DNA from: a virus
IMG/VR virus record: IMGVR_UViG_3300044643_000381
Coordinates: 1 to 29,293 of that record
Reading direction: 5' to 3' (one strand)
Length of the DNA: 29,293 nt
Shown: in pieces, positions 3,461 through 22,984 of the stretch
Numbering within the stretch: position 1 is the first letter of the stretch
Layout of the letters: every line of letters begins with the position of its first letter
Translations under genes and position numbers: made by a program
The notes under the pieces: model-generated
Told to the model about the DNA's origin: nothing
Seen by the model: only the letters and a program-made list of their open reading frames with translations
The model's database searches: none

Positions 3461-4218
3461 TATTCTTGTGATTGTTTATTTTGACCAGGATCTGTACCTG
3501 CTTGGGTATAGTTTGCTGCTACACTAGGGATATTATCATCCTTAGAGTTGTTATTTTGATCTATATAAAGTGTTCTCTTAGTTCTTAGTTCATTAAGAAC
3601 AGCTGGTTTAACAAGCGTTTGCCACATCCAAGCATTAATTGGATAACGTGAATTCCAGTTAAAACATGGTTGTTGAGTATCACAGCTAATAAACTTAGCT
3701 GCTTCAGTAGGATCCTCAAATACTCCTTGTAGATTTACAAACTGTAATAGTTTGTTAAAGTTACCTTTGTTGTAAACTATGTATAAATAGTTATTTTTAA
3801 GGAATGCTCCTAGTGCTTTAGTATTATATCTACCATTTCCGTAGTAAACAGCATGATCGTAATCCATAAAATAAATAGGAATAGACATAAAATCCACAGA
3901 GCTAATTCTCGTAATAGTCTTTTCATGGTTTAATTCAATAGCGTTAGGTATTGGTTGTTTACTTTTTAGTATTTTACAGTCTACAAATACCTCACAACAC
4001 CTGTCAGACTGCCTATTAACTAAATCAAGCTCAACACAACCTAGGTCTTGAATGATATTATCATCAATACTCCTGTTTTTATTATGCTCTTTTCTAATCC
4101 AATTAGCCCTTTCTTGGTTAATAAGGTCTTTAATTAGACGTTTATCTAATGTAGTATCATCAGCTGTTATCTGAAGATCCTCATAGATTTGGTAAATCAT
4201 CTGGTTTAAACTAATCAT
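3460..4218 (-). CDS. Ring / tail-stabilisation-type protein (252 aa)
   Basis: A 252-aa protein opening with helices (MISLNQMIYQIYEDLQITADD, then IKDLINQERANWIRKEHNK), followed by a beta-rich middle with cysteines, and a disordered Asn/Gln/Ser-rich tail from about residue 225. This helical start (…YQIYEDL…LI..ER) is typical of neck-ring and P22 gp4-like tail stabilisation proteins of crAss-like phages. It is followed directly by the HU-like gene (1-nt overlap), which supports the call. Its start overlaps the TAG stop of the preceding lysis gene by 8 nt, so translation of the two is probably coupled. It should sit below the portal in the neck or upper tail. Confidence 0.62.
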   Translation of the reverse strand: MISLNQMIYQIYEDLQITADDTTLDKRLIKDLINQERANWIRKEHNKNRSIDDNIIQDLGCVELDLVNRQSDRCCEVFVDCKILKSKQPIPNAIELNHEKTITRISSVDFMSIPIYFMDYDHAVYYGNGRYNTKALGAFLKNNYLYIVYNKGNFNKLLQFVNLQGVFEDPTEAAKFISCDTQQPCFNWNSRYPINAWMWQTLVKPAVLNELRTKRTLYIDQNNNSKDDNIPSVAANYTQAGTDPGQNKQSQE

Positions 4219-4792
4219 GGTCTTTATTTAATTGATAAGAAAAACCTACCATAACTGATTTAGTTAGTGGTAAATAATTTAGTTGGTAAATATAGCCTTT
4301 TTTATGATAATATGATATACCTACACCTGCTTCAAAGGTATTTGCATACTGACTACCCATAAATATACCATTAATTGCAAGTATATTCTTAGTAGTTTTA
4401 ACATACCTAATAACACTATCAGTGTGAGTAATAGTTGTAAGTATCTCTTTAGGTATTTTTAACTTGTAATTAAAGTTAGATTCTACCAATGTACCATCAA
4501 TTTTATTGATGAAAGTAGCATCTAGATTACTATCACTGTACTCTTGAGTATATAGATTGATTGTAGTATCCTCTGGATAAGGAATAGGTACAGGTACATC
4601 TAGTTTTACATACTTAGTAAATGTATCAACTTTAGTTACAACAGTAGTATCAGATGTCCTAATTATCTCAGTTTTAATAATTTCCCTTGGTTCTGTAGGA
4701 CAAGACTTATGACACTGCTGTAATAAGAATAGCAAAGCCAGCAATACAAGTATTGTTACTCTTTCAATGGTAAACCAAGATTTCTTTTTCAT
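4211..4792 (-). CDS. Membrane- or lipid-anchored lysis-cassette protein, spanin-like candidate (193 aa)
   Basis: The N-terminus has basic residues followed by one hydrophobic segment (VTILVLLALLFLLQQC, about residues 12-27). The Cys at the end recalls a lipobox but lacks the usual small residue before it, so a signal anchor is equally likely. A periplasmic stretch with DTT/VDT and Pro-rich pieces (VPVPIPYPEDTT) follows, and the C-terminus looks like beta hairpins (EAGVGISYYHKKGYIYQLN). Small proteins of this plan next to endolysins are common in Bacteroidota phages and have been left as unknown families. Position right after the M15 peptidase (ATGA overlap) suggests a role in the last step of lysis, such as a spanin linking inner and outer membranes; that is inference. 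It ends in a TAG codon. Confidence 0.55.
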   Translation of the reverse strand: MKKKSWFTIERVTILVLLALLFLLQQCHKSCPTEPREIIKTEIIRTSDTTVVTKVDTFTKYVKLDVPVPIPYPEDTTINLYTQEYSDSNLDATFINKIDGTLVESNFNYKLKIPKEILTTITHTDSVIRYVKTTKNILAINGIFMGSQYANTFEAGVGISYYHKKGYIYQLNYLPLTKSVMVGFSYQLNKDHD

Positions 4793-5301
4793 AGTGCCCA
4801 GGTTTTATATAATGTTTTCTTACCAGACTTATATGCTCTTAATACTTGGTTTCTGTTCTTACCTTCAACATAAGAAATGTGAATCCATGAAGGGTTATCA
4901 TCAGTACCAAATTCTAATATACACTGATCAAACTCAAAAGAAGGATCACTTGCTAGTTCTTTAATTGCTACTACAATAGAACCATTAAACTCTTTACCAT
5001 CTTTAATAAAGTTAATATCAGCAGCTTGTCCATAACAGTGTTGAGAAGTTTGTACTGGTTTACCATTAATTACAGTATAAGCTCCACCTATCTTAGCATT
5101 TAATCTAGGACATCTGTAACCAGAAGTTACTGTAATACCTGCTTTTAGATAATCTCTAATTGGCTGGAGTACTTTAACACAAAGTAATGTCAGGTTGTTT
5201 ATAATATCTTGTGGAGGATTAAATTGCTCATCAAATCCCCACCTTACTGCTGATGGTGATTTAACCATTTCAGACAGTGTAAAATTTCTACTCAGTTTCA
5301 T
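4789..5301 (-). CDS. Endolysin: peptidase M15 (D-Ala-D-Ala / L-Ala-D-Glu type)
   Basis: A 170-aa single-domain zinc peptidase that should cut peptide bonds in peptidoglycan stem peptides. Visible motifs are SGYRCPRLNAKIGG (residues 60-73), SQHCYGQAADIN (86-97) with zinc ligands H88 and D95, a probable catalytic Glu at CILEFG (E130), and WIHISY (139-144) with the third ligand H141. These match the M15 family of phage endolysins. There is no signal peptide, so it needs a holin, and a holin-like gene lies directly upstream with a 14-nt overlap. The start MKLSRNFTLSEMVKS is typical of this family (FTL.E...S). The next gene overlaps by ATGA. High confidence in the enzyme class; exact bond specificity is not visible. 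Confidence 0.9.
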   Translation of the reverse strand: MKLSRNFTLSEMVKSPSAVRWGFDEQFNPPQDIINNLTLLCVKVLQPIRDYLKAGITVTSGYRCPRLNAKIGGAYTVINGKPVQTSQHCYGQAADINFIKDGKEFNGSIVVAIKELASDPSFEFDQCILEFGTDDNPSWIHISYVEGKNRNQVLRAYKSGKKTLYKTWAL

Positions 5302-5542
5302 TTTTTACATCTTTGTTTTTAAGTTTTGTTAATCCCATTCCTCCTAGTATTACAGAAGTCATTGTAATCATAGCATATTCTACCAATGCTTTATTTGGTA
5401 TTTCATTCTTCTTATAAAGTACAATTGCTAATGTAACAGCAAACATTATTACAAAAGCAAATACAGTAAGTCTTTTATGATCTATCTTACCATTACTACC
5501 TTTAAAAGATTCTATGAACATTTGTTTAGTTTTGTTTAACAT
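5288..5542 (-). CDS. Holin-like membrane protein (84 aa)
   Basis: An 84-aa protein with two hydrophobic segments, about residues 27-44 (VFAFVIMFAVTLAIVLYK) and 55-72 (EYAMITMTSVILGGMGLT), separated by a short polar loop, and a charged Lys/Glu C-terminus. The small size, two membrane spans and overlap with the endolysin start (14 nt) fit a class II-type holin that lets the M15 enzyme reach the cell wall. The stop is TAG, inside the start region of the endolysin, which suggests translational coupling. A similar plan occurs in many uncharacterised Bacteroidota phage proteins, so holin activity is inferred from context. Confidence 0.65.
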   Translation of the reverse strand: MLNKTKQMFIESFKGSNGKIDHKRLTVFAFVIMFAVTLAIVLYKKNEIPNKALVEYAMITMTSVILGGMGLTKLKNKDVKNETE

Positions 5543-5834
5543 ATTGTTTAAGTTCTATTTTCAGTCTTTCTATTTCAATTGCTTGTCTTAAGTTCTCTTG
5601 TTCTAACTCAGATATTCTCTTAGTTAGTTTTTCTTCTATTAAATAGGATTCTTCCTCTTTTTGTTCTAAAAGATTTATTTTCTTTTCAAGTCTATCAATT
5701 TCACTATAAAGCTTATTTTGAATTTCAGCATACATTTCTACAGCATCCCTTTTTTTACTAAAAAGTCTAGGGATAGTTACTGTTAGGATTGCTGAACCCA
5801 GTGCAATTAAGGCTAAAAGAATAGGTTGTTCCAT
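5526..5834 (-). CDS. Single-pass membrane protein with coiled coil, lysis-associated (102 aa)
   Basis: The first 25 residues form one hydrophobic segment (ILLALIALGSAILTVTIP) and the remainder, from about residue 30, is a highly charged coiled coil (DRLEKKINLLEQKEEES and following heptads). This is the plan of an inner-membrane i-spanin or a class III holin partner. It is the first gene of the lysis cassette and overlaps the holin-like gene by 17 nt. A coiled coil reaching into the periplasm could work with the anchored protein at 4211-4792. No partner evidence is visible beyond gene order, so the functional label is tentative. Confidence 0.6.
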   Translation of the reverse strand: MEQPILLALIALGSAILTVTIPRLFSKKRDAVEMYAEIQNKLYSEIDRLEKKINLLEQKEEESYLIEEKLTKRISELEQENLRQAIEIERLKIELKQYVKQN

Positions 5835-5842
5835 AGGTTAGG

Positions 5843-6391
5843 TTATTTAATTAATGTTACTCTACCAATTTTTTCATGGTATTTATTGTTTATATCTTTA
5901 TAATACATCTTATAAGTATATACATCATCCTCACAAATTCTATTGTTATAAGTACCATCCCATCTTTTGTTTAGATCATGAGAAAAGAATACCATTTCTC
6001 CCCACCTATTCCAAATAGCCATCTTAAAATCAACTATGTTTATACCATATGCACCAAACTCTTCATTATCACCATCACCATTTGGAGTAAAAGCTGTTGG
6101 TATCCATATAAATGTTTCTTTACATTCAATGATTTTTATTACTATTTTGTCATTTGAATAACATGCATCATTACTAAAAGTAGCTGTTATTACATAAGTA
6201 CCTAAATCTTTGAAGGTAATTGTCATAACATCATTATTTACTTGGTATGGTATTAAAGGAATAACACTCCAACTAATATTAGATGAAGTGTTAGCCCTTA
6301 TTTCCTTCTGAATCTCAGCACCACATAGTTCATATACAGGCTGTGCACTCAGTTTTATGCTTATAAATAATAATAGTATGAAATATTTCAT
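5843..6391 (-). CDS. Secreted protein with T9SS type-B (CHU_C / gliding_CTERM) sorting domain (182 aa)
   Basis: A signal peptide (MKYFILLLFISIKLSAQ, residues 1-17) is followed by an Ig-like domain (about 19-90) and a C-terminal domain (about 94-182) with the hallmarks of the type IX secretion type-B signal: WIPTAFTPNGDGDNEEF (96-112), IWNRWGEMVF (126-135), RWDGTYN (143-149) and the terminal GRVTLIK (176-182). In Bacteroidota this domain directs proteins through the outer-membrane translocon to the surface or medium. It is a hallmark of host surface proteins such as gliding adhesins and is unexpected among virion and lysis genes. The start shares 1 nt with the upstream stop (TGATG), so it is probably translationally coupled. 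Domain call is strong; role in the phage is unknown. Confidence 0.88.
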   Translation of the reverse strand: MKYFILLLFISIKLSAQPVYELCGAEIQKEIRANTSSNISWSVIPLIPYQVNNDVMTITFKDLGTYVITATFSNDACYSNDKIVIKIIECKETFIWIPTAFTPNGDGDNEEFGAYGINIVDFKMAIWNRWGEMVFFSHDLNKRWDGTYNNRICEDDVYTYKMYYKDINNKYHEKIGRVTLIK

Positions 6392-6951
6392 CAGTCAGTA
6401 TATATAATTCCAGTAGGTAATGGTTCTACAGTTACAGTACCAGTACCAGTAATAGGACAGCCACCAGCTGTCTGTGATGTTACAGTAATAGTATAGTTTC
6501 CTGCAAGCAATCCAGAAGGATTAAATGTTGTTCCTGAAACTCCTGTACCACTAAATACAGGAGTAGTACCTAGGTTTTGCCCTGTAATGTTCTGAACATT
6601 ACCACCTTCACATACTACAATAGGATCAATAGTAGCTGTTACAGCATTCTGTACAGTAATTTGAGCAGTAGTTGTAAACTGGCAGCCAGAAGCATTTGTC
6701 TCAATCATTGTCATAGTATATACACCAGGTGTAGTCCAAGTAACTTGAATCTGCTGGGAAGATACTGTAAATGGTTGCACAGGTACAATACTAAATTGGT
6801 AAGTTGACGTAGGATCAATAACTTGATCTCCATAGAAATGGGTTTCATTTGGACAAACAGTCTGACCATTAGCAGCATTAGGCGTTGGTACTTGACTATA
6901 AGCTGTTAAACTAGTCAATAAAATAACAATTGAGAATAGCAAATTTTTCAT
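6391..6951 (-). CDS. Secreted protein with two Ig/PKD-like domains of flavobacterial adhesin type (186 aa)
   Basis: A clear signal peptide (MKNLLFSIVILLTSLTAYSQ, residues 1-20) precedes two beta-sandwich domains. The first (about 30-100) contains TYQFSIVPVQPFTV and TWTTPGVYTMTMIETNASGC, and resembles the Ig-like part of the next gene. The second (about 105-180) contains CEGGNVQNITG, FSGTGVSGTTFNPSG and AGNYTITVTS, the pattern of repeat domains in flavobacterial T9SS surface proteins. It ends in PLPTGIIYTD with no sorting domain, so alone it should stop in the periplasm unless carried by a partner. The next gene, with the sorting domain, begins in the overlapping TGATG. The preceding 48-nt gap holds a -7-like element (6966-6973). 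Confidence 0.8.
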   Translation of the reverse strand: MKNLLFSIVILLTSLTAYSQVPTPNAANGQTVCPNETHFYGDQVIDPTSTYQFSIVPVQPFTVSSQQIQVTWTTPGVYTMTMIETNASGCQFTTTAQITVQNAVTATIDPIVVCEGGNVQNITGQNLGTTPVFSGTGVSGTTFNPSGLLAGNYTITVTSQTAGGCPITGTGTVTVEPLPTGIIYTD

Positions 6952-6965
6952 AAAAAATCTTTTAA

Positions 6966-6973
6966 CAAATATA
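6966..6973 (-). promoter_or_regulatory. Bacteroidota-type -7 element before the Ig-domain secreted gene
   Basis: On the minus strand this reads TATATTTG, matching TANNTTTG, 14 nt before the ATG at 6951. No TTG is seen at the expected -33 distance, and it lies in a 48-nt gap inside a dense operon. It may be an internal promoter or chance in AT-rich DNA. Confidence 0.3.
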
Positions 6974-6999
6974 ATTAATAAATAAATCCTTTGATATAC

Positions 7000-7953
7000 C
7001 TAATCTGAGTGTATAATTGGAAGGTCATAGGTGTTAATACCCACATTTACAGTATCATAATATTCTATGGTATTAGAACCACAGTTATACTTAACCTCAG
7101 CAATATATGAATTTGGGTTACAAACTACTAGTTGGGAGTTAGTACCTAAAATATTACCACCACTATCTAACCAACTAAATACACTATTAACTACACCATT
7201 AGGACTAAACCTCCAAGCTTCAGGAGTATTGATAGTATAGTTTGCAGTATTTCTACCTGTAGGTGCATAGGCTATACTACCAGCTGCATTCTGAATACCA
7301 AGGCAAGCTCTACCACCATTCCAAGAACCACAGGTTTGCTTTCTTTCTACATGTATTTCTATTATGTTACTTAGCTCAAATAGAATTATCTGAAATTTAG
7401 ATCTTTGTATTGGACAATTAAAGTGTGAAACATCATTAAAACTAATGACTAATTTTCTACATGGATACACACCTGTAACACCATATCTAACTTCACCACC
7501 TAATGAAGGATCTATATCATGGTAAAGTCCTATCATAGGTCTAGGAAATCCTGGTGGTGGATTAGGATTATTGTTAGGTATTGGTACACTAAAAGCCCAT
7601 GGACAATATAATCCTGCATAAGCTGTATTAAATGATATAATACCATTAGTTCCAATAACATACTGTGTATATGTTTGATTGAAAAAACAGAACTCAAATG
7701 GTAGGGTTACAACATTAGACCACCTATCATCAACAGCTATGTTGTATATAGTACCAGTAGTATATGGTAATGGGTTATATGGTATTGGTGTTATTAAATA
7801 AGCATTTGTAGCTCTAGTCTGTGTATAGTTAGCTGTTAATGTTTGACAGTTATTACAGTCAAGAGTTATATCATTACCTGCATTAATTACATTACATTGA
7901 GACTGTATTGCATTACTTATGATTAATAGAATTATACTTATTAAGTACTTCAT
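7000..7953 (-). CDS. Secreted protein matching the N-terminal domain of T9SS type-B adhesin-like proteins (about 317 aa)
   Basis: The frame is open from 7971, but I place the start at 7953 because that ATG gives a compact signal peptide (MKYLISIILLIISNAIQSQ). The mature part begins CNVINAGNDITLDCNNCQT and carries a run of motifs I recognise from the N-terminal region of large flavobacterial type-B T9SS proteins: DDRWSNVVTLPFEFCFFNQT, YVIGTNGIISF, YCPWAFSVPIPN, IGLYHDIDPSLGG, CGSWNGG, CLGIQNAAG and EAWRFSPNG. In those host proteins this region is followed by PKD/Ig repeats and a CHU_C domain; here the protein stops at IIHSD with a TAG codon. It overlaps the preceding secreted gene by 41 nt (59 nt if the 7971 start is used). 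Its partner domains are encoded by the next two genes. Confidence 0.82.
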   Translation of the reverse strand: MKYLISIILLIISNAIQSQCNVINAGNDITLDCNNCQTLTANYTQTRATNAYLITPIPYNPLPYTTGTIYNIAVDDRWSNVVTLPFEFCFFNQTYTQYVIGTNGIISFNTAYAGLYCPWAFSVPIPNNNPNPPPGFPRPMIGLYHDIDPSLGGEVRYGVTGVYPCRKLVISFNDVSHFNCPIQRSKFQIILFELSNIIEIHVERKQTCGSWNGGRACLGIQNAAGSIAYAPTGRNTANYTINTPEAWRFSPNGVVNSVFSWLDSGGNILGTNSQLVVCNPNSYIAEVKYNCGSNTIEYYDTVNVGINTYDLPIIHSD

Positions 7954-8386
7954 ATAAATAGGTTGTATCATTGATATATACTATATAAGAGTTATCTGTA
8001 ACAATGTTTCTAATAACAATCTTATCTATTAAATGCTCTTTTAACCATCTTATTTCATATGAATTTAGGTTAAAATATGCTACTATTTCACAAGACAACC
8101 TTCTAATGCTGTATGTAGATAATGAGTCTCCTCTAGATATGAATGTCACAAATGTTGAATCTGAACATCTACTAGTTAATGGATCTCCTCTTCTAAAAGA
8201 AATAGGCTTAAATCCTATAGTATCTTTATAGTAAATCTTTATAGTCTGTACATACCAATACTTTTCACCCATCTCTAAGTTTTCAACAATAGGCTGTATC
8301 TTAATATCTTTCTGTACTAAGGGCTCAGGTTGTTGAGCTGTTAGTATTATTGATAAAAGGGCTAATGCAAAAACTAGATATTTCAT
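7913..8386 (-). CDS. Secreted protein of unknown function (157 aa)
   Basis: The N-terminus is a signal peptide (MKYLVFALALLSIILTAQQ, about residues 1-18). The mature 139 residues have no family I recognise; they mix beta segments (YWYVQTIKIYYKDTIGF) with a helical C-terminal half rich in Ile, Asn and Tyr (ILE/ASN pattern: IRNIVTDNSYIVYINDTTYLY). Two Cys residues (CSDS and SCEI) might form a disulfide in the periplasm. It is the first of four genes in a row for exported proteins, and its end overlaps the next start by 41 nt. The gene begins 6 nt after the stop of the 567-aa protein. Its function is probably tied to the following T9SS-like set, by position only. Confidence 0.65.
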   Translation of the reverse strand: MKYLVFALALLSIILTAQQPEPLVQKDIKIQPIVENLEMGEKYWYVQTIKIYYKDTIGFKPISFRRGDPLTSRCSDSTFVTFISRGDSLSTYSIRRLSCEIVAYFNLNSYEIRWLKEHLIDKIVIRNIVTDNSYIVYINDTTYLYEVLNKYNSINHK

Positions 8387-8392
8387 AGTGAG

Positions 8393-10096
8393 TTAGTTAA
8401 CAAAGGTATAAGCTACCGTAACCTTAGCAGCTAATGGCGGAGGCTGGCTGCCTGTACTCCAGTTAATAGTTGTAGGAGCTATTGTTCCTCCGAATGAGTA
8501 TATCGTCTGCTTAGAATAAGGCAAAACACCACCTGTGCCAGAGCTATCAATATCTGTTGCGTTGACATATTCTACCGTCTGAGTTGCAGAGTTTTCAAGA
8601 TTGAATATCGCCCTTACCCCAGCCGAAGAAGCATTTAATGTCACCACAGCCGCTGCTACAGTTGTTAACATAGTTAAGTTGGCGGTAACACTATATACCA
8701 CCACTGCTGACTTTAATGTGATTGGTCTAGCCACTCCAGAGGCATTTATTACTAGAAGATTCTCAACAGTAAATCCAAATGTAGTGCTTGATGTTATTGA
8801 CGTAGAAAAAGCAGCGGATTGTGGCGTTATCCTAAGAGTATTTGCAAGCAATTCACTGTTCAAATTCAAAACTCCCCCAAGAAACTCTAAATACCTAAAG
8901 TTTAAATTTGTGGCGCTATATGTCATTGTTGATGCAGCATTATTGCACCAAAATCTAACAATACAGGTTGAGTTTTGGGTCACTGTTCCTGATGTGTGGG
9001 TGAATGAATAAGACAATCCGCTTGGCACAAATAAGCCAAAGATTCCATTTGAGTTAAAGTTAACACTGCCTCCTGCAGTCTTATTGATTATAAACTCTTT
9101 TATTTGAAGATTGCTAGCCGTTACAGCTGTAATATTACTAGCTGTGGTTCCAGAGAACTCTAGTCTGTCGATAGTGCAGTTACCGCCACCTGTAGCTATA
9201 AAATTGCCTTCAAGCAATAATTTTGCAGATCCTACAGAAGTTATGACTATTGTTGTTGCTTGTATGGTTATAAAAGACTTTATAACTGTATCATTAGCTA
9301 AGATCAGAGATCCACTTGTATATCCATAAAAATCTGAGTTATTAGAAGCATTAAAACCCGAAACAGTTAGATTGCCTCCGTTAGAAAAACTATGAGTCGA
9401 AACAGCATTGAATTGACCTCCAGACTCAACTGTAAGAAAGCTAGTTCCAGCTAACCCTGCGTTCCCTAGCGATGTGTAAGTGCTTCCAGACACAAAGGAA
9501 GCGCGAACATTGAAGCATACAGAGTTTGAAGAATATGTTCTTGATGTTCCATATCCCTTAATGGTAACATGATCTGTAGTATTTATGTTACAAGCACCAA
9601 GGGTTATGTTACCACCAGTCCTTAAATCTACGGTAGTGCCAGTTGCTGCTTTTATATTATGACCAGTGGCGGCTGCTGTTAAATTTCCTTGAAAATCAGC
9701 ATTTCCTGTTAGCGTAAAAGTGCTTCCAGATAAGTTTACAAGTAAATTAACAGGTAGTATTTTATTATTGCTTACCAATCCGGGGTTTGTTCCCGCAACG
9801 GTCAAGGTGTAGGATGTTGGAGTTGCGTTTGTCGCATAGGACGACCCAGAGCCTAAAGTAATCGTGCCGGATGTTATTGTAAAAGAAGCCCCAAACGTAA
9901 ACGTGCCTGTGTAGCCTGTAAAATTCGCACTAAGGGCATTAAAACCAACATTGAGAGTGCAGTTTTTATTACCGTTAGGAGCTACACCATCAAAAATAAT
10001 ATCATCCCCCGCAGCAGGGATAGTTCCACCACTCCAGTTTCCACCAGTGTTCCAGTTTTCATTAGCCCCTGCGCCCGTCCAAGTCTTGACAGCCAT
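8393..10096 (-). CDS. Large beta-rich surface/fibre protein, probable receptor-binding (567 aa)
   Basis: The N-terminus has WTGAGANENWNTGGNWSGG and IPAAGDDIIFDG (residues 5-37), a motif common at the start of beta-helix-type extracellular bacterial proteins and of some environmental phage fibres. The rest is Thr/Ser/Gly/Asn-rich with short repeating beta segments (TLTVAGT, TVDLRTGGNITLG, LTVESGGQFNAVS), as in a right-handed beta-helix or solenoid. No signal peptide is present, so it is more likely a virion fibre than exported. Base composition is richer in G+C than flanking genes: three 60-nt rows in or beside it count 43-47% G+C, versus 30% in a row of the next gene. It shares 1 nt with the stop of the 81-aa gene (TAATG). 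A recently acquired receptor-binding module is the likely reading. Confidence 0.65.
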   Translation of the reverse strand: MAVKTWTGAGANENWNTGGNWSGGTIPAAGDDIIFDGVAPNGNKNCTLNVGFNALSANFTGYTGTFTFGASFTITSGTITLGSGSSYATNATPTSYTLTVAGTNPGLVSNNKILPVNLLVNLSGSTFTLTGNADFQGNLTAAATGHNIKAATGTTVDLRTGGNITLGACNINTTDHVTIKGYGTSRTYSSNSVCFNVRASFVSGSTYTSLGNAGLAGTSFLTVESGGQFNAVSTHSFSNGGNLTVSGFNASNNSDFYGYTSGSLILANDTVIKSFITIQATTIVITSVGSAKLLLEGNFIATGGGNCTIDRLEFSGTTASNITAVTASNLQIKEFIINKTAGGSVNFNSNGIFGLFVPSGLSYSFTHTSGTVTQNSTCIVRFWCNNAASTMTYSATNLNFRYLEFLGGVLNLNSELLANTLRITPQSAAFSTSITSSTTFGFTVENLLVINASGVARPITLKSAVVVYSVTANLTMLTTVAAAVVTLNASSAGVRAIFNLENSATQTVEYVNATDIDSSGTGGVLPYSKQTIYSFGGTIAPTTINWSTGSQPPPLAAKVTVAYTFVN

Positions 10097-10341
10097 TACT
10101 CAATAGTTATTTCTTGGTTTAAAGGTAAAGCTGAAACTACATTTGGAAGATTGGCTAATGCATCTTTTCTCCACTTGTAGCTATTTGCATAATTCACAAT
10201 AGCTTGGGTTGCTTCCTGAGCTGCGGAAGGTAAACTCACAGCGATTTCATTAACATGAATCTCGCCATCTATGTTGAACTCAACATTTATAAACAAAGTG
10301 CCATCAGGCGTAGTTCTTGAAGAAAGTATTTTATAGGTCAT
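10096..10341 (-). CDS. Small fibre-module protein (81 aa)
   Basis: An 81-aa soluble protein with an N-terminal beta part (MTYKILSSRTTPDGTLFINVE, DGEIHVNEIAVSLP) and a helical part (AAQEATQAIVNYANSYKWRK). It overlaps the 600-aa fibre stop by ATGA and the 567-aa fibre start by 1 nt, so the three are translated together. Like the 567-aa gene it has raised G+C (47% in the row 10201-10260), suggesting that the two moved as one unit. Small genes between fibres often encode adaptors or assembly chaperones; that role is a guess here. Confidence 0.6.
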   Translation of the reverse strand: MTYKILSSRTTPDGTLFINVEFNIDGEIHVNEIAVSLPSAAQEATQAIVNYANSYKWRKDALANLPNVVSALPLNQEITIE

Positions 10342-12140
10342 ATTTTAGTTATTGATATTGAAAGATTTACCCAAGTAATTGATGAAATTGCTGATATGTC
10401 AAATTTAAGAACATCTCCTGCTGTAATGGTAGACATACCTGGATTATAAGCTCCTGCATTTGTTGCCTTCTGAAAACCTGCTGGAATTGCAGGATTTGTA
10501 GAATAAACAGCAGAAGATGTAGGAAATCCAGTATAAGTACCTTTGCTAACTGTAATGGTACAAGCACCTGCTTGGTCAGCTACCATTGACCATGCACCTA
10601 ATGTGCCGTTATAAGGTATCTGAACATAGGCTGTCTTACCATTTAATATAACCTGACTACCTCCATCAAATGTAACACCACAAGAACCGACCTTTAAATT
10701 TGTCTTTAATGTTGAAACAACACTTTCAGAAGAACTTGTTGCAGGACCAGCAGTTACATCACCTGTTAATTCTCCTATTGAATTTCCACCACTACTACTA
10801 TACTGAGGAATGTTTAATGTGGCTCCTGTTAATGTAGCAGGACCACTTGTTCCTGTTGTAGTTAATGTTATAGCATCTTGCTTACCATTAAAAGTATCAA
10901 ACTCAGCTTTACTAATCAACCCTGCCGTAACTCCTGCTGCACTAGCTAATGGTATGTTTAATGTATGAGCATCTAAAACAGAACTCCAATTAGGTGCTGT
11001 TCCTGATGTACCTGGAGTTGCAAAGTTTTGTACAAATGCTGTTAGCCCATTAAGAGAATTAATACCTGATGGAAAGTCTGTGATTATTTGACTGAGGTGA
11101 GGTCCTTGGGTATGTAGTGTAATTGTTCTACTACTGTTGTTTACAAAGATTCTTACAGCAAGTCTATCTGTTAAAGCAAGAGTAGTCTGAGGAACACTAA
11201 GTGCTGTAAAGTAAAGATCTATTGCTGTTCCATTAGTAATGCCTTCTGGAGTTGCAGAGCTTGTTGTAATAGGAGTAAATGTACCACCTACTGTATCATA
11301 TTTAGAAAGTTCTACGTAAAAACTAGGGCTTCCACCATTACTGTTAGCACTAAACCATAACTCAAAGTTCCAGTTACCAGCAGGGATTACAGCCTTGTTA
11401 GGATCTCCAGCATCTGTTATAAAACTCTTAATATATCCATTTGTGTTTATAGTAAAGTCAGTACCAGCTCCAATTACAGGAACTGGGCTCATCTGCCTCA
11501 TGTCAACTATACCTCCAAATGTTCCTTGAATAACACTTCCATTTAGATAGTAACTTCTACCTCCACCCCCACCTCCACTTGCTACATCAGCATACTCTAC
11601 AGCAGATTCTCCTAAGTTTACTCTAAGAAATTTACCTGCATTTCCTACAAGAGTATCAGCAGGTGCAAGTTTTGAGTTTAAGGATATTGTACCTGTGTTT
11701 GTTATAGGACCACCTGTCAGACCTGTTCCTGTGCCTACAGATGTTACTGTTCCTGAACCTCCTCCACCAATAGAACTAAAAGTAATGTTACCTAGACCAT
11801 CATCAGTGATAGTCATATTAGTTCCAGCTACTAAATTTAGTAGTGTTTGTACAGGATTTGGAGTACCATTAGTTTCTAATGTTATACCTGCTGCTGAAAA
11901 TGTAGTTGTAGTAACTCCTGTTATTCTACCCCATTGATCTACTTGTAAAATAGGTATACGAGTAGAACTACCATAGGTTCCTGATGTAACTCCTGTTGGA
12001 GTTAGATTAGCAGTTAGGTTTAAATTCTCTAATGTAAAATCTATATTAGCACTGTCAGTAACAAAAAAAGGAGTTCCATCAACCTGCTGTCTAGGAGGTT
12101 GGATACTGAAATCCTTTCTTTTGTTACCAAAAAATGCCAT
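10338..12140 (-). CDS. Tail fibre / appendage protein (600 aa)
   Basis: Residues 47-80 (TGVTSGTYGSSTRIPILQVD, then GRITGV) form the well-known phage fibre motif with a TYGS..ripi..VD..GRIT pattern. A Gly-rich hinge and the segment GTVTSVGTGTGLTGGPITN (about 130-148) follow, which is a recurrent fibre-shaft repeat. A beta-sandwich region occupies about residues 220-350, then GLISKAEFDTFNGKQDAITL (another fibre-repeat signature), and the C-terminal ~100 residues form a small beta domain (GKTAYVQIPYNGTLG onward). These features support a trimeric, modular tail or head fibre. It starts 3 nt after the 1149-aa gene and overlaps the 81-aa gene by ATGA. Which appendage it forms cannot be decided from sequence alone. 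Confidence 0.8.
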   Translation of the reverse strand: MAFFGNKRKDFSIQPPRQQVDGTPFFVTDSANIDFTLENLNLTANLTPTGVTSGTYGSSTRIPILQVDQWGRITGVTTTTFSAAGITLETNGTPNPVQTLLNLVAGTNMTITDDGLGNITFSSIGGGGSGTVTSVGTGTGLTGGPITNTGTISLNSKLAPADTLVGNAGKFLRVNLGESAVEYADVASGGGGGGRSYYLNGSVIQGTFGGIVDMRQMSPVPVIGAGTDFTINTNGYIKSFITDAGDPNKAVIPAGNWNFELWFSANSNGGSPSFYVELSKYDTVGGTFTPITTSSATPEGITNGTAIDLYFTALSVPQTTLALTDRLAVRIFVNNSSRTITLHTQGPHLSQIITDFPSGINSLNGLTAFVQNFATPGTSGTAPNWSSVLDAHTLNIPLASAAGVTAGLISKAEFDTFNGKQDAITLTTTGTSGPATLTGATLNIPQYSSSGGNSIGELTGDVTAGPATSSSESVVSTLKTNLKVGSCGVTFDGGSQVILNGKTAYVQIPYNGTLGAWSMVADQAGACTITVSKGTYTGFPTSSAVYSTNPAIPAGFQKATNAGAYNPGMSTITAGDVLKFDISAISSITWVNLSISITKI

Positions 12141-12143
12141 TTA

Positions 12144-15100
12144 TTATTTTACTAGTTTATTAATATGGTTGATAATATCTGAAACTTGTTTATTAGTTAA
12201 ACACTCTTGCTCAGCTGTAGTTTCTTCACAAGGGTTATCATTAACAAATAGTCCAATATTACCTTCATCAAAAGTACCTTCATAAGGTGTTAATGTAGGA
12301 TCTACACCATTAATAAATGTTGAATTAACATTTACATAATCTGTATATTGTGGAGATACATAATCATATGAATATCTAAATATATAGCCATTAAAGAAAC
12401 TAAAACTATCAGGGGGTGATAAAAACTGAACTACATTACCAACTAAAGGTAATTTAATTTGAAAGTCTAAGTTATCTGGACTAGCGTTGAAACTATCTAC
12501 TAGTGCTTGTCTACTTGTATAATTTTGAGGTGGTAAATCATCATATAAAGTAGCATAAGGATCTAAATCAGCTTCTAATACTTCAGCAGTAAATTGTCCT
12601 ACAGTAGGATCTATACCATTATCAAAAACCCCATTTATAACATACTCACTTGTGTTGTAATCATATGTTAGAATAAAACCATTATATACCCAATTACCTG
12701 TACCAAATACTGGTGTAGTAAGAGGCTGTATTGGAGAATAAAATCTAACTTTTGTTGTTGATATAGAAGCCAAACCACCTTCAAAAGATTCTTCTTTAAT
12801 CAAAGAAGTTGTTGTAGAACCTCCTGTAAAAGAACTAATATTAATTAATGGAGCAGTTGAATATGGTACAGTGTTTACTATAACAGTACCACTAACAACT
12901 AATAGACTAAGTGGAAACCCGTTTAGTGAACTACCTGTAAAAGGTGGTGCAGTTATAACAACTGAAGATCCTGTTGCTATTGCAGTATAACCTCCTCCTA
13001 AAAAACTTATTGAATCTTCTACTAACAAAGCTACTTCAGAACCAAGTTTAAATGAGGATTGGCTGTATATACAAATATTAGCATCACCTACCTTTATAAA
13101 AAAGGATGTATTAGGAAGAGCAGACCCAAAGTTAAGAGTTACTGTTGAAGCTGTATATCTTACTTTATTAATTTTTAATAGTTTACCATTATAGGCAGCT
13201 GCTTCATTAGGTGGTGACTCTTGAAAAATTCCTGGACCTGTAAAACTAGATGTAAGCCCTAGTACATAATTGTTACTAACAATATTACTGTTTAAATTTG
13301 AAATCATAGTAGCATATGAAGGTAAACCCCCTGTAATTGGAGCTTGGTATTTACCCAATTCAAAATCATCTAAATATGCGTTAATTTCTTGACCATTTGA
13401 AATACCAGCTGCCGTCAATTCAGTTATAAAAGCATTTAAAACAGTAGATGGAGTTTCAGCAATAGGATCACCACTACCTGCATACTCTGCTTCATATAAT
13501 AAAGGATTAGTATTAAAATCAGGTATAAGACCGTTCTCTATTTCTGAGCCATTTGGGTAGTTGTAAGAGTCAGCAGTTCTTGAAAATATTGCATTAAGAT
13601 TATCACTAATGTCATATTTATTTGATACAGCATTTATTCCCCCACTAATAGTAGAATTATCGCTAGAATAATCAGAATATTCAGCACTTGTATAATTAAT
13701 AAATAATTTGAAATAATAACCATTGTAAGTATCACATATCAAAGATTGTGGTAGTTCAAATGGGTATGGAAAGTTTGTTGTTATTTCATTATTAGCGTTA
13801 ACACCTATACCAAATACATAAGTGTTATCAATGTTAGTTTGAATGTCAGCCGCTATATCTGCTACAGATGTGTAAATTGTAGGTGTTGTATTTTCAATTA
13901 CAGGTAGTACCAAAACATTAGAAGAATCATAAAGTTCTAAAAGGTAAGTACATTCTGTAGTATCAATACCTCCTTTGTAGTTATTAGAATTAATATATGT
14001 TCCACCTGCATATGTAGGATCTACTGCTGTAAATGTTAAAGGAGTATTGTTATATACAGCTGTAAATGGACCAGCTGGTGTAAATACTAAACGGCTAGTT
14101 CCTGGATTACTAATACCTAAAGATACAGTATAACTTCCTGCTAAAGTAGTATTAAAATCTGTAATAAAATCTTGAACATCACTAAAAGATGGTGCTGTTA
14201 CACTATAGGTTAACCCAATTGTATCTTCTACAGTTAAAGATAAAGGTTTAATAGACTTACCTCCTGAGAATGTACCAGAATTATTTTGATAAATAACAGC
14301 AGCAGTATAAATTATATTTATAACACCATTGTTAAATGGCTGTCCACTAATAGGACTTGCTACTTGAAATCTAGAAAACCCTGAAGTAGGAGATGGTCCT
14401 ACATAACTCATCGTAAACCCATTTCCATTATTAGCATTAAAACCTGATACTAATGCAGCAGGATCTGTATAAGGTCCTGTGTGACTAAACATTATAGTAA
14501 AACCACCATTTGTATAAACAAAAAATTGATTTGATGGGTTTGTTGTACCAAACATAGCTTCATCTTCTACATCAATAGTCATGGTAGCTGCTGCTTGTAC
14601 AGTACTAAATATTGTATTAGGTATGATTATTTCAGCTCTAGCTAGTACAAATTCTGTAACAAATGGTTGAGAAATAGCTGGTTCTATAACAGATGTTGCT
14701 GGTACACTACCTACAAATGTATTAGGTATATCAACAAGAGTAGATGCTCTTGTACCTTCTGTTACAAATGGTTGGGGTATAAATGTAGATAAAGTTCTAA
14801 GTGCTAAAGAATCTTGCCCACCTTCATATTGACTAAATACAACTTTATAGCCTGAATAATCAGTACCATCAAATGGAGTTAACATTGTAAACTGAGTACC
14901 ATCATATAACATTAACCAGTCTTCAGGACCTTCACTATTCCACTTATTAACAATTTCTTGAGGGTTGTCTATAATATCTACAGGTATTGTAAGTGGATTA
15001 TTAAGAATATCTAAAGGAGTTACACCATCAGGTTCATAGATAGTTATATTACCATCCCAATCACCATATATATTATCTGCAGTAACAGGATCATCTGTTA

Positions 15101-15593
15101 CTTCTTCAATAACAGCTACTTCAATAGGTGATATTGTATTAGGTTCAAAACTACAGTTATCTGTAAAAGCTACACCATCTAGATTTAATACATAAGGATC
15201 TTCTGTACTTGGGTCTATTAGAGTAGAAAATTGAATTACTATCTTTTGATTATCGCTATCATAGAAGTAAGTAAAAGGATAGCTTATTTCATTGTAATAC
15301 ATACTACCACTATTATCACAACCAAACTGAATTTTAGCTTCAGTTAATTCTGATAGTTCATTTAGTAATACAGTATAATCACCTTCTATACAACAACTAC
15401 AAGTAATAGTACTACCTACTATTTTAAAGTTTCTAAGAATTTCAACGTAAGCTCTAAGTAATCTAATCTGTTTTAACAAACAAGAATTATTTATACCTAC
15501 AGCTAATCCACCATAATACTTAACTGCTTTTAATGCAATTGAATACCATGCTTTAATTATAGCTGTTTGTATTTTAGATGTAGTAAGTATCAT
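12144..15593 (-). CDS. Giant multi-domain repeat protein, probable virion appendage (1149 aa)
   Basis: The N-terminal ~75 residues are helical with a Cys cluster (TCSCCIEGDY, about 63-72). The rest is a chain of degenerate beta modules of roughly 90-120 residues, each with a helix-like V..FN segment (DPAALVSGFNANNG; VQDFITDFNTT; RQALVDSFNASPD) and a Gly-Gly or Asn-Gly end (FSGGKS, YKGGID, ISGGIN, FTGGST, FDNGIDPT, FINGVDPT). Two adjacent short repeats begin QPFVTE and contain IPNT. The C-terminus returns to Cys (NPCEETTAEQEC) and a helix. There is no signal peptide. Located among fibre genes, it is likely a long virion fibre or adhesin; no enzyme motif was seen. The start is 16 nt after the collagen-like gene. 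Confidence 0.7.
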   Translation of the reverse strand: MILTTSKIQTAIIKAWYSIALKAVKYYGGLAVGINNSCLLKQIRLLRAYVEILRNFKIVGSTITCSCCIEGDYTVLLNELSELTEAKIQFGCDNSGSMYYNEISYPFTYFYDSDNQKIVIQFSTLIDPSTEDPYVLNLDGVAFTDNCSFEPNTISPIEVAVIEEVTDDPVTADNIYGDWDGNITIYEPDGVTPLDILNNPLTIPVDIIDNPQEIVNKWNSEGPEDWLMLYDGTQFTMLTPFDGTDYSGYKVVFSQYEGGQDSLALRTLSTFIPQPFVTEGTRASTLVDIPNTFVGSVPATSVIEPAISQPFVTEFVLARAEIIIPNTIFSTVQAAATMTIDVEDEAMFGTTNPSNQFFVYTNGGFTIMFSHTGPYTDPAALVSGFNANNGNGFTMSYVGPSPTSGFSRFQVASPISGQPFNNGVINIIYTAAVIYQNNSGTFSGGKSIKPLSLTVEDTIGLTYSVTAPSFSDVQDFITDFNTTLAGSYTVSLGISNPGTSRLVFTPAGPFTAVYNNTPLTFTAVDPTYAGGTYINSNNYKGGIDTTECTYLLELYDSSNVLVLPVIENTTPTIYTSVADIAADIQTNIDNTYVFGIGVNANNEITTNFPYPFELPQSLICDTYNGYYFKLFINYTSAEYSDYSSDNSTISGGINAVSNKYDISDNLNAIFSRTADSYNYPNGSEIENGLIPDFNTNPLLYEAEYAGSGDPIAETPSTVLNAFITELTAAGISNGQEINAYLDDFELGKYQAPITGGLPSYATMISNLNSNIVSNNYVLGLTSSFTGPGIFQESPPNEAAAYNGKLLKINKVRYTASTVTLNFGSALPNTSFFIKVGDANICIYSQSSFKLGSEVALLVEDSISFLGGGYTAIATGSSVVITAPPFTGSSLNGFPLSLLVVSGTVIVNTVPYSTAPLINISSFTGGSTTTSLIKEESFEGGLASISTTKVRFYSPIQPLTTPVFGTGNWVYNGFILTYDYNTSEYVINGVFDNGIDPTVGQFTAEVLEADLDPYATLYDDLPPQNYTSRQALVDSFNASPDNLDFQIKLPLVGNVVQFLSPPDSFSFFNGYIFRYSYDYVSPQYTDYVNVNSTFINGVDPTLTPYEGTFDEGNIGLFVNDNPCEETTAEQECLTNKQVSDIINHINKLVK

Positions 15594-21730: not shown

Positions 21731-22912
21731 TTATTTATTATTTAGGAAATTTTCTAGTGAAGTTAATACATCAACCTCTTTATCATTAAGGTTATTACTT
21801 AAGTTAGAGCCTGATTTAAATGCTGCTTTTTTAAGTCTATCATCAATACTTCTAGTAACTTTTGTTTCTGCTAGACGCATTAGTTTGGTTAAGTCAGGTT
21901 TAATGTTACCTTTCTCATCCATATTGAATAAACCTAGTTCTGTCAAGTAATGCAGTTGCAATCTAAATGCTTCTGGATTCTTTCTGGAAATAGCAGCCAC
22001 TTTGTTTAATGGTTGTTTATTTTCATCATAAGCAACTGTTTCTGTCATTGACTTATACAGTTGATCTTTCATTTTATCTGTAATAGGAACTCCCTTGAAG
22101 ATCTCTGGAGTTTGTGAGATTGTTGCTTTCAAAGCTTGAAGTCTTTGTTGAGCTTCACGTTGTCTTTGAAATGCAATATTTTGTTCTTCTTGTTTTTTAA
22201 GTTCAATCTGTCTTTGAGCTTCTTGATTTAAAATCTGCGCAGCTTCCAAGCCTTCATCAGTTAATTCATCTAGATCTCTAGCTCTTTCCACATACTTGTT
22301 AATTTTTTCTTGAGAAAACCCTTTAGTTTTAAGAAGGTCTCTATAAAGCTGCTCTGCTTTCTGAGGATCAGACTCTAGAGTCTCTTTAGTGATTGATGAA
22401 TAATCAACTACTTTGCTACCAATATCTAGTGAAGAATCTTCATCTAGACCATCCATAAACAGTTCAAACTGTTTACGCATTTTAGTAGGCATTTCAGATA
22501 CAATATCTTCAAAGATCTTTACGCCTCTTTTGAAGTCACGTCTTTCCATTAAAGATTTAAAACTATCTGGAGTACCATCAAATTTAAAATCATCATCTTC
22601 TTGGAAGTCTTCTTCCTCAAATAACCCCTCTGCTTTAAGCTGTTCAGCTAATACTTTATAAAGAGGTTCATCCTCTTCATTAGCAGGTTCTTTCTTATCA
22701 GAAGGTGGTGCAAAATCTTTTGCTTTACTTTCTGGTGTTTCATCCTCATCTGCTGAGTCATTAATTAGATCTGACAACTCTGTGTCAAAGTCAAATTCAT
22801 TGGTTTCAGCTACGTCTTTTACCAAGTTTTTATCAGATGAATTATTGATTACTTCACCTGCTCCTCCTTCAGGAGCTTCAAAATCTGGGCTGTAAAATTT
22901 GTTACGTTTCAT
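21731..22912 (-). CDS. Scaffold-like acidic coiled-coil head protein (393 aa)
   Basis: A 393-aa protein with a strongly acidic, disordered N-terminal third (runs such as DLINDSADEDETPESK and FEEEDFQEDDDFKFDG), a helical centre, and a Gln/Glu-rich coiled coil at about residues 225-265 (NQEAQRQIELKKQEEQNIAF). The C-terminal part is helical and more basic (RSIDDRLKKAAFKSGSN). An acidic, helical protein placed between portal and capsid genes is the classic position and build of a scaffolding protein that guides shell assembly. No protease motif was seen. The capsid gene follows after 2 nt. Function is inferred from composition and synteny. Confidence 0.65.
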   Translation of the reverse strand: MKRNKFYSPDFEAPEGGAGEVINNSSDKNLVKDVAETNEFDFDTELSDLINDSADEDETPESKAKDFAPPSDKKEPANEEDEPLYKVLAEQLKAEGLFEEEDFQEDDDFKFDGTPDSFKSLMERRDFKRGVKIFEDIVSEMPTKMRKQFELFMDGLDEDSSLDIGSKVVDYSSITKETLESDPQKAEQLYRDLLKTKGFSQEKINKYVERARDLDELTDEGLEAAQILNQEAQRQIELKKQEEQNIAFQRQREAQQRLQALKATISQTPEIFKGVPITDKMKDQLYKSMTETVAYDENKQPLNKVAAISRKNPEAFRLQLHYLTELGLFNMDEKGNIKPDLTKLMRLAETKVTRSIDDRLKKAAFKSGSNLSNNLNDKEVDVLTSLENFLNNK

Positions 22913-22922
22913 ATTATTCTTA

Positions 22923-22956
22923 CAAAATTATTATTAATAATTGTTTATCTACCAAA
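22923..22956 (-). promoter_or_regulatory. Bacteroidota-type promoter before scaffold and capsid genes
   Basis: On the minus strand TAATTTTG (22930-22923) matches TANNTTTG and a TTTG (22956-22953) lies 22 nt upstream, inside the usual 17-23 nt range. It sits in the 66-nt gap before the ATG at 22912 and could drive the scaffold and capsid genes together. The short distance to the ATG (10 nt) implies a very short leader. Confidence 0.5.
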
Positions 22957-22984
22957 TAAGCTTGTTTTTCTATATAGCTTATTT
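22954..22984. repeat. Perfect 8-bp inverted repeat over the portal stop codon
   Basis: AAATAAGC (22954-22961) and GCTTATTT (22977-22984) form a perfect 8-bp stem with a 15-nt loop that includes the portal stop codon. On the minus strand it has no U tract afterwards, so it is not a clear terminator of the portal transcript; on the plus strand it is followed by T residues. It overlaps the proposed -33 box. Confidence 0.35.

Follow-up and report, generated by a model that had tools for sequence, protein, structure and literature searches.

What does a phage gain from encoding, as three consecutive secreted proteins, a set of domains that recalls a large flavobacterial surface protein, and do the three products work as one? 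The locus lies in an IMG/VR virus record that we analysed entire (the window, 29,293 bases), a fragment of a phage genome. Its major capsid protein is of the crAss type, with 32% identity to that of crAss001 over 99% of its length, and its portal and terminase match the PHROG head-and-packaging families phrog_6547 (7e-121) and phrog_6681 (1e-124); on the strength of these matches, the window phage is crAss-like. A first-pass annotation had read the three genes as one long host protein split up by the phage, possibly acting in superinfection exclusion, lysis or the virion. Here we weigh these readings using domain profiles, structure models, relatives in phages and hosts, and a short C-terminal motif that links the parts.

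All three genes are intact and lie on the same strand. Gene A, the head (7000-7953, minus strand), encodes a signal peptide, a head domain, one Ig-like domain and the C-terminal tag LPIIHSD directly before the stop (7003-7023, minus strand); its open reading frame spans 7000-7971 (323 aa), but translation more probably begins at 7953 (317 aa), 7971 being an in-frame alternative. Gene B, the stalk or adaptor (6391-6951, minus strand; 186 aa), has a signal peptide, two Ig-like domains and the tag GIIYTD before its stop (6394-6411, minus strand). Gene C, the anchor (5843-6391, minus strand; 182 aa), follows so closely that the stop of B and the start of C overlap as TGATG; it combines a signal peptide, one Ig-like domain and a type-B sorting domain of the type IX secretion system (T9SS), placed at 5879-6103 (minus strand) by CHU_C and TIGR04131 profile matches. 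Two further features flank the three genes. Directly upstream of A is a fourth secreted protein (7913-8386, minus strand; 157 aa) with no family and no tag, 92% identical in a sister phage, and another cassette-bearing contig (L029) has a 155-aa secreted ORF between its head and B. On the other side lies a probable lysis block (4211-5834, minus strand), comprising a weak Rz/LysB-like ORF (5526-5834), a small membrane ORF (5288-5542), an M15 endolysin (4789-5301; phrog_894, 3e-37) and a second membrane ORF (4211-4792), all on the minus strand.

The signal peptides, called from hydropathy and the Bacteroidetes Q-rule (PMC5837995), are shared by the families as a whole: no aligned member of any of the three lacks Q at +1, and in a rough scan the residue is present in 83/85 heads, 91/92 B and 33/34 C proteins, with truncated or misstarted ORFs accounting for the exceptions. 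C thus has both the hydrophobic leader and the family-conserved Q at +1 expected of a Sec substrate, and the description of A, B and C as three separate secreted genes is borne out. Tail-fibre-like genes sit just upstream of the cassette (8393-15593), which might suggest that A, B and C are themselves virion parts, such as outer fibres. We find this very unlikely given Q-rule signal peptides on all three proteins, a T9SS sorting domain on C, and the lack of any PHROG family covering A, B or C. A role as a defence system was rejected because the genes gave no PADLOC match.

Only one of the three proteins carries a recognisable T9SS signal. C scores well above the cut-offs of both type-B models (PF13585 CHU_C, 7.6e-14, 52 bits against 27; TIGR04131, 4e-12, 46.1 bits against 35), and its sorting domain is near-complete, covering profile positions 3-83 of 85; A and B match neither model in the profile search. 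By sequence, C is a member of the type-B T9SS substrate family and A and B are not, so that the proposed restriction of the export signal to the third protein stands. For B, two matches stay below their cut-offs, one hinting at a type-A domain (0.033, 14.2 bits against 23) and one to PKD_4 (2e-4), and its AF2 model (pLDDT 90.9) contains two Ig-like domains, in keeping with the two Ig/PKD-like domains assigned to it earlier; in the model its tag is extended and unpaired. A has no family match in the domain-profile search. Fused surface proteins in phage contigs have an N-terminus homologous to A (33-36% identity), and standalone homologues occur in L003, L004, L005 and L066. The model of A (pLDDT 76) predicts a head followed by one terminal Ig-like domain and a disordered tag (pLDDT about 40). 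Fold searches with the head gave no confident match, the best Foldseek E being 0.013 at probability 0.08 and the best VIA Z 7.1; against PDB sequences, weak herpesvirus glycoprotein B matches (E about 0.1) were taken as chance.

Could the three genes be fragments of a single decayed gene? The gene order A, B, C is conserved in the sister phage contig (L003), where identity is 80-92%, and dN/dS between the two phages is 0.28 for A, 0.23 for B and 0.12 for C, so the layout is due neither to chance nor to decay. Purifying selection, the conserved order and the existence of A homologues 35-83 kb away from B-C in two large phages together rule out a decayed single gene.

Nor is the split peculiar to this phage, as had been supposed. 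IMG/VR holds at least 98 relatives of C and at least 137 of B, of which 80 were kept for each. After removal of near-copies, a script classed 92 of 145 C-type proteins as split, 27 as fused and 26 as other; these labels are rough, since the resemblance of host B repeats to part of C causes some bacterial loci to be called fused, and about 14 of the 92 split rows are bacterial, some of them redundant. Dozens of further phage contigs in IMG/VR carry a split head-B-C cassette. These carriers include crAss-like as well as T4-like phages, a T4-type portal being present in 13 and a Terminase_6N match in 13 of the 22 virus records tested. Across cassette loci, B nearly always adjoins C. Among cultured phages in the GenBank set, B is absent and C has no convincing match, the search for C returning only weak Campylobacter phage matches (E 0.4-0.5) besides two uncultured megaphages and a misfiled bacterial fragment. 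Type-B sorting domains were matched four times in the two megaphages (LR745206.1 and LR756502.1, each over 630 kb), within proteins as long as 1670 aa; one of the four matches, in LR756502, falls below the cut-off. The fragment, deposited as 'Bacteriophage sp.' (MT839536.1), looks bacterial and has a CHU_C protein followed by an apparent lytic transglycosylase and uvrA.

The same cassette is found on bacterial chromosomes. Two Flavobacteriales metagenome-assembled genomes (MAGs) hold head-B-C beside guaA and ClpC/gyrA-type genes, and a strong B match was present in 19 of 396 Flavobacteriales genomes. At 14 further host loci, some cut by contig ends, the order is guaA, a LysM-type protein, head, B, C, lolA and ftsK, with neighbours named by reading the translations. 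Among 395 genomes drawn across the phylum there was one further B match, inside a long protein; the host genomes are mostly MAGs. Given these chromosomal loci, the split layout is, as judged from genome sequence, a resident feature of some Flavobacteriales. This residence bears on a role in lysis, in which an A-B-C complex would loosen the outer membrane beside spanin-like, holin-like and endolysin genes. In crAss-like phages, the genes after C are indeed a weak Rz/LysB-like ORF, an ORF for a small membrane protein and an M15 endolysin gene, but no lysis genes were seen adjoining the cassette in T4-like contigs, and the cassette also occurs as a resident set of genes in bacterial chromosomes. 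We therefore consider the lysis role, for which we found no specific support, highly unlikely.

If the split is this widespread, which came first, the single chain or the separate genes? The split B and C profiles match phage proteins of about 650-820 aa with the order head-B-C; in one 654-aa example (L071), B aligns to residues 325-480 (5e-42) and C to 483-654 (5e-53). In a C tree rooted by midpoint, where host rows fall outside the phage group, the 11 fused rows cluster together (93% of bootstrap trees; branch support 91/68) inside split phage rows, the enclosing branches being supported at 100/99, 95/91 and 98/92. The C proteins of hosts make up a group of their own (98/92). Because fused forms are nested within split forms, the simpler reading is that single-polypeptide versions are later fusions of split genes. 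The derivation of the split genes from one long host protein is thus not supported, given both this nesting and the presence of the same split cassette on Flavobacteriales chromosomes. As the fused phage proteins keep the order head, B, C, the separate proteins probably touch one another in that order.

The head is the variable part of the cassette. Heads belong to at least seven mutually unrelated families, and by clustering they fall into eight groups, of which seven occur in phages; Pfam matches within heads include SprB repeats, PKD and a glycine-rich ALK/LTK-type domain, as well as GEVED in a bacterial head. In each of two large phages (G002 and G003), a single B and a single C are accompanied by two different tagged heads, one of which lies 83 kb from B-C in G002 and 35 kb in G003 and is in both a homologue of A. 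Each of these phages also encodes another protein worth recording: an 858-aa type-B T9SS-type protein in G002 (88742-91318), and in G003 (22193-22966) a 257-aa secreted protein ending in LSGRVIGVK that is type-A-like by eye.

What heads and B have in common, and C lacks, is a short C-terminal motif, PIxHN or YTD/HSD/YTN. The tag pattern fits 81/85 heads and 87/92 B proteins, counts made on the same sequences from which the pattern was first derived; it also matches 56 of 2143 other ORFs, of which, on reading, 3 are clearly not head or B copies or fragments. In G003, a looser pattern also matches two non-cassette ORFs of 76 and 194 aa. Since the pattern had been written from cassette sequences, its narrower PIxHN form was tried elsewhere. 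Among 15 host genomes with the cassette, 9 of 9 distinct ORFs ending in PIxHN are a cassette head or B, and 17 cassette-free Flavobacteriales genomes hold zero such ORFs; the absence is the one fully independent result of the two, as some of the 15 hosts had already shown the PIxHN form. It is the ORF ends that are specific, as the raw 18-base pattern alone has chance matches in cassette-free genomes. Furthermore, the tag class of the head matches that of B within a genome wherever both are typical (76 H/H, 6 TD/TD, 0 mixed and 3 atypical), the 76 H/H cases not being independent, since a single common head family is present in most cassettes and many of these cases come from related phages. 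Stronger evidence, we suggest, comes from two head families that occur in both tag classes, each time matching the B of their own genome, and from the two-headed G002 and G003. The head type of the window ends in ILHN in L066, HSD in the window, YTD in G002 and FTD in G003; a PKD-containing head type ends in IQHN in L050 and YTN in L026, the two being 60% identical.

Two other explanations of the tag deserve consideration. The tag might be a minimal export or retention signal, with A and B using the T9SS or another outer-membrane route alone and no complex needed; this would account for its presence on heads and B and its absence from C, which has a signal of its own, and for heads that lie far from B-C in large phages. 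We judge it unlikely, since T9SS signals known so far are folded domains of roughly 70-100 residues (see also PMC12618676) and not tails of 5-9 residues, since fused homologues hold the tag-equivalent stretch as an internal linker and end in a single CHU_C domain, and since B nearly always adjoins C. In the second possibility, the three proteins merely co-occur, A and B being ordinary proteins of the periplasm or surface whose shared ends are inert linker relics of a former single polypeptide: the tags do resemble the A/B linker of fused proteins (in L068, PTISPIIYSD before TACYN). The nesting of the fused clade in the split clade, tags on unrelated head families in a class matching the local B, and tagged heads far from B-C all argue against such relics, and we regard this account as decidedly unlikely.

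Taken together, we favour, with a probability of roughly 0.6, a surface display complex of three parts, put together by tags and exported via the host T9SS, which supports, from sequence, the earlier proposal of an envelope complex as the likely product. Sec would carry A, B and C over the inner membrane and their signal peptides would be removed, a step well supported by sequence. The short tag of A would then dock onto B and the same-class tag of B onto the Ig domain of C, as tag matching, shared anchors and fused homologues suggest. C, with the only recognisable T9SS signal, would enter the translocon and, from known type-B biology, may remain on a host PorP/SprF-type shuttle, with A and B either co-exported or meeting C at the surface. 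Use of a host shuttle is suggested by the lack of a PorP/SprF gene in the 24 phage records tested and its presence in 2-7 copies in each of 6 hosts; in F. johnsoniae, orphan type-B substrates share one general shuttle (PMC12618676). Since heads are interchangeable, one B-C anchor could present several of them. The likeliest use, and the weakest step of the scheme, may be late re-coating of the infected cell for superinfection exclusion or altered adhesion; that surface remodelling, perhaps superinfection exclusion, is the purpose is a weak inference, in line with what has been suggested for Cryophage cargo (PMC7468147). Whether the cassette is, more broadly, a general plug-in display system of Flavobacteriales and their phages, with C as anchor, B as adaptor and many interchangeable heads recognised solely through short class-matched C-terminal tags, the phage sets rewriting the surface of the infected cell, seems to us evenly balanced. 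If true, T9SS cargo could be displayed without a sorting domain of its own by docking to a small carrier via a few-residue tag, which would enlarge the set of predicted T9SS-displayed proteins, supply a simple genomic signature for finding them and offer a modular display tool; crAss-like and T4-like phages would both remake the host surface via the host's own secretion machine.

How does this compare with known systems? Like T9SS type-B CTD substrates such as SprB and PG1035 (PF13585/TIGR04131), C has a Sec signal peptide, an Ig-like domain and a near-complete sorting domain; it differs from them in its very small size (182 aa), in having partners, A and B, that are encoded separately and lack the domain, and in the absence of a PorP/SprF shuttle from the phage records tested. 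The orphan type-B substrates of F. johnsoniae resemble C in having no shuttle gene of their own and offer a model for borrowing a general host shuttle, but are not reported as tagged multi-gene assemblies (PMC12618676). The sprB operon of Flavobacterium johnsoniae (sprC, sprD, sprB, sprF) likewise places several genes around one type-B surface adhesin, yet it includes a gene for a shuttle of its own, SprF, and the adhesin is giant. GhpA, the grappling hook protein A of Aureispira, has tandem Ig repeats matched by the B profile (2.7e-20; Foldseek TM 0.56 to the query), but is a single chain of about 5900 residues, whereas B is two repeats and a C-terminal tag. Also phage-encoded are the type-A T9SS cargo proteins of Cryophage, variable in content and proposed to alter the host surface, in which the domains sit on single enzymes or PA14 proteins and form no multi-part cassette with tags (PMC7468147). 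The first-pass annotation was aware of no description of the split layout, and within one open-access library neither a split type-B cassette nor a docking tag turned up in any paper; as phage-borne T9SS cargo is already known (PMC7468147), what is new is the three-part layout, its occurrence in hosts as well as in unrelated phages, and the agreement in C-terminal tags.
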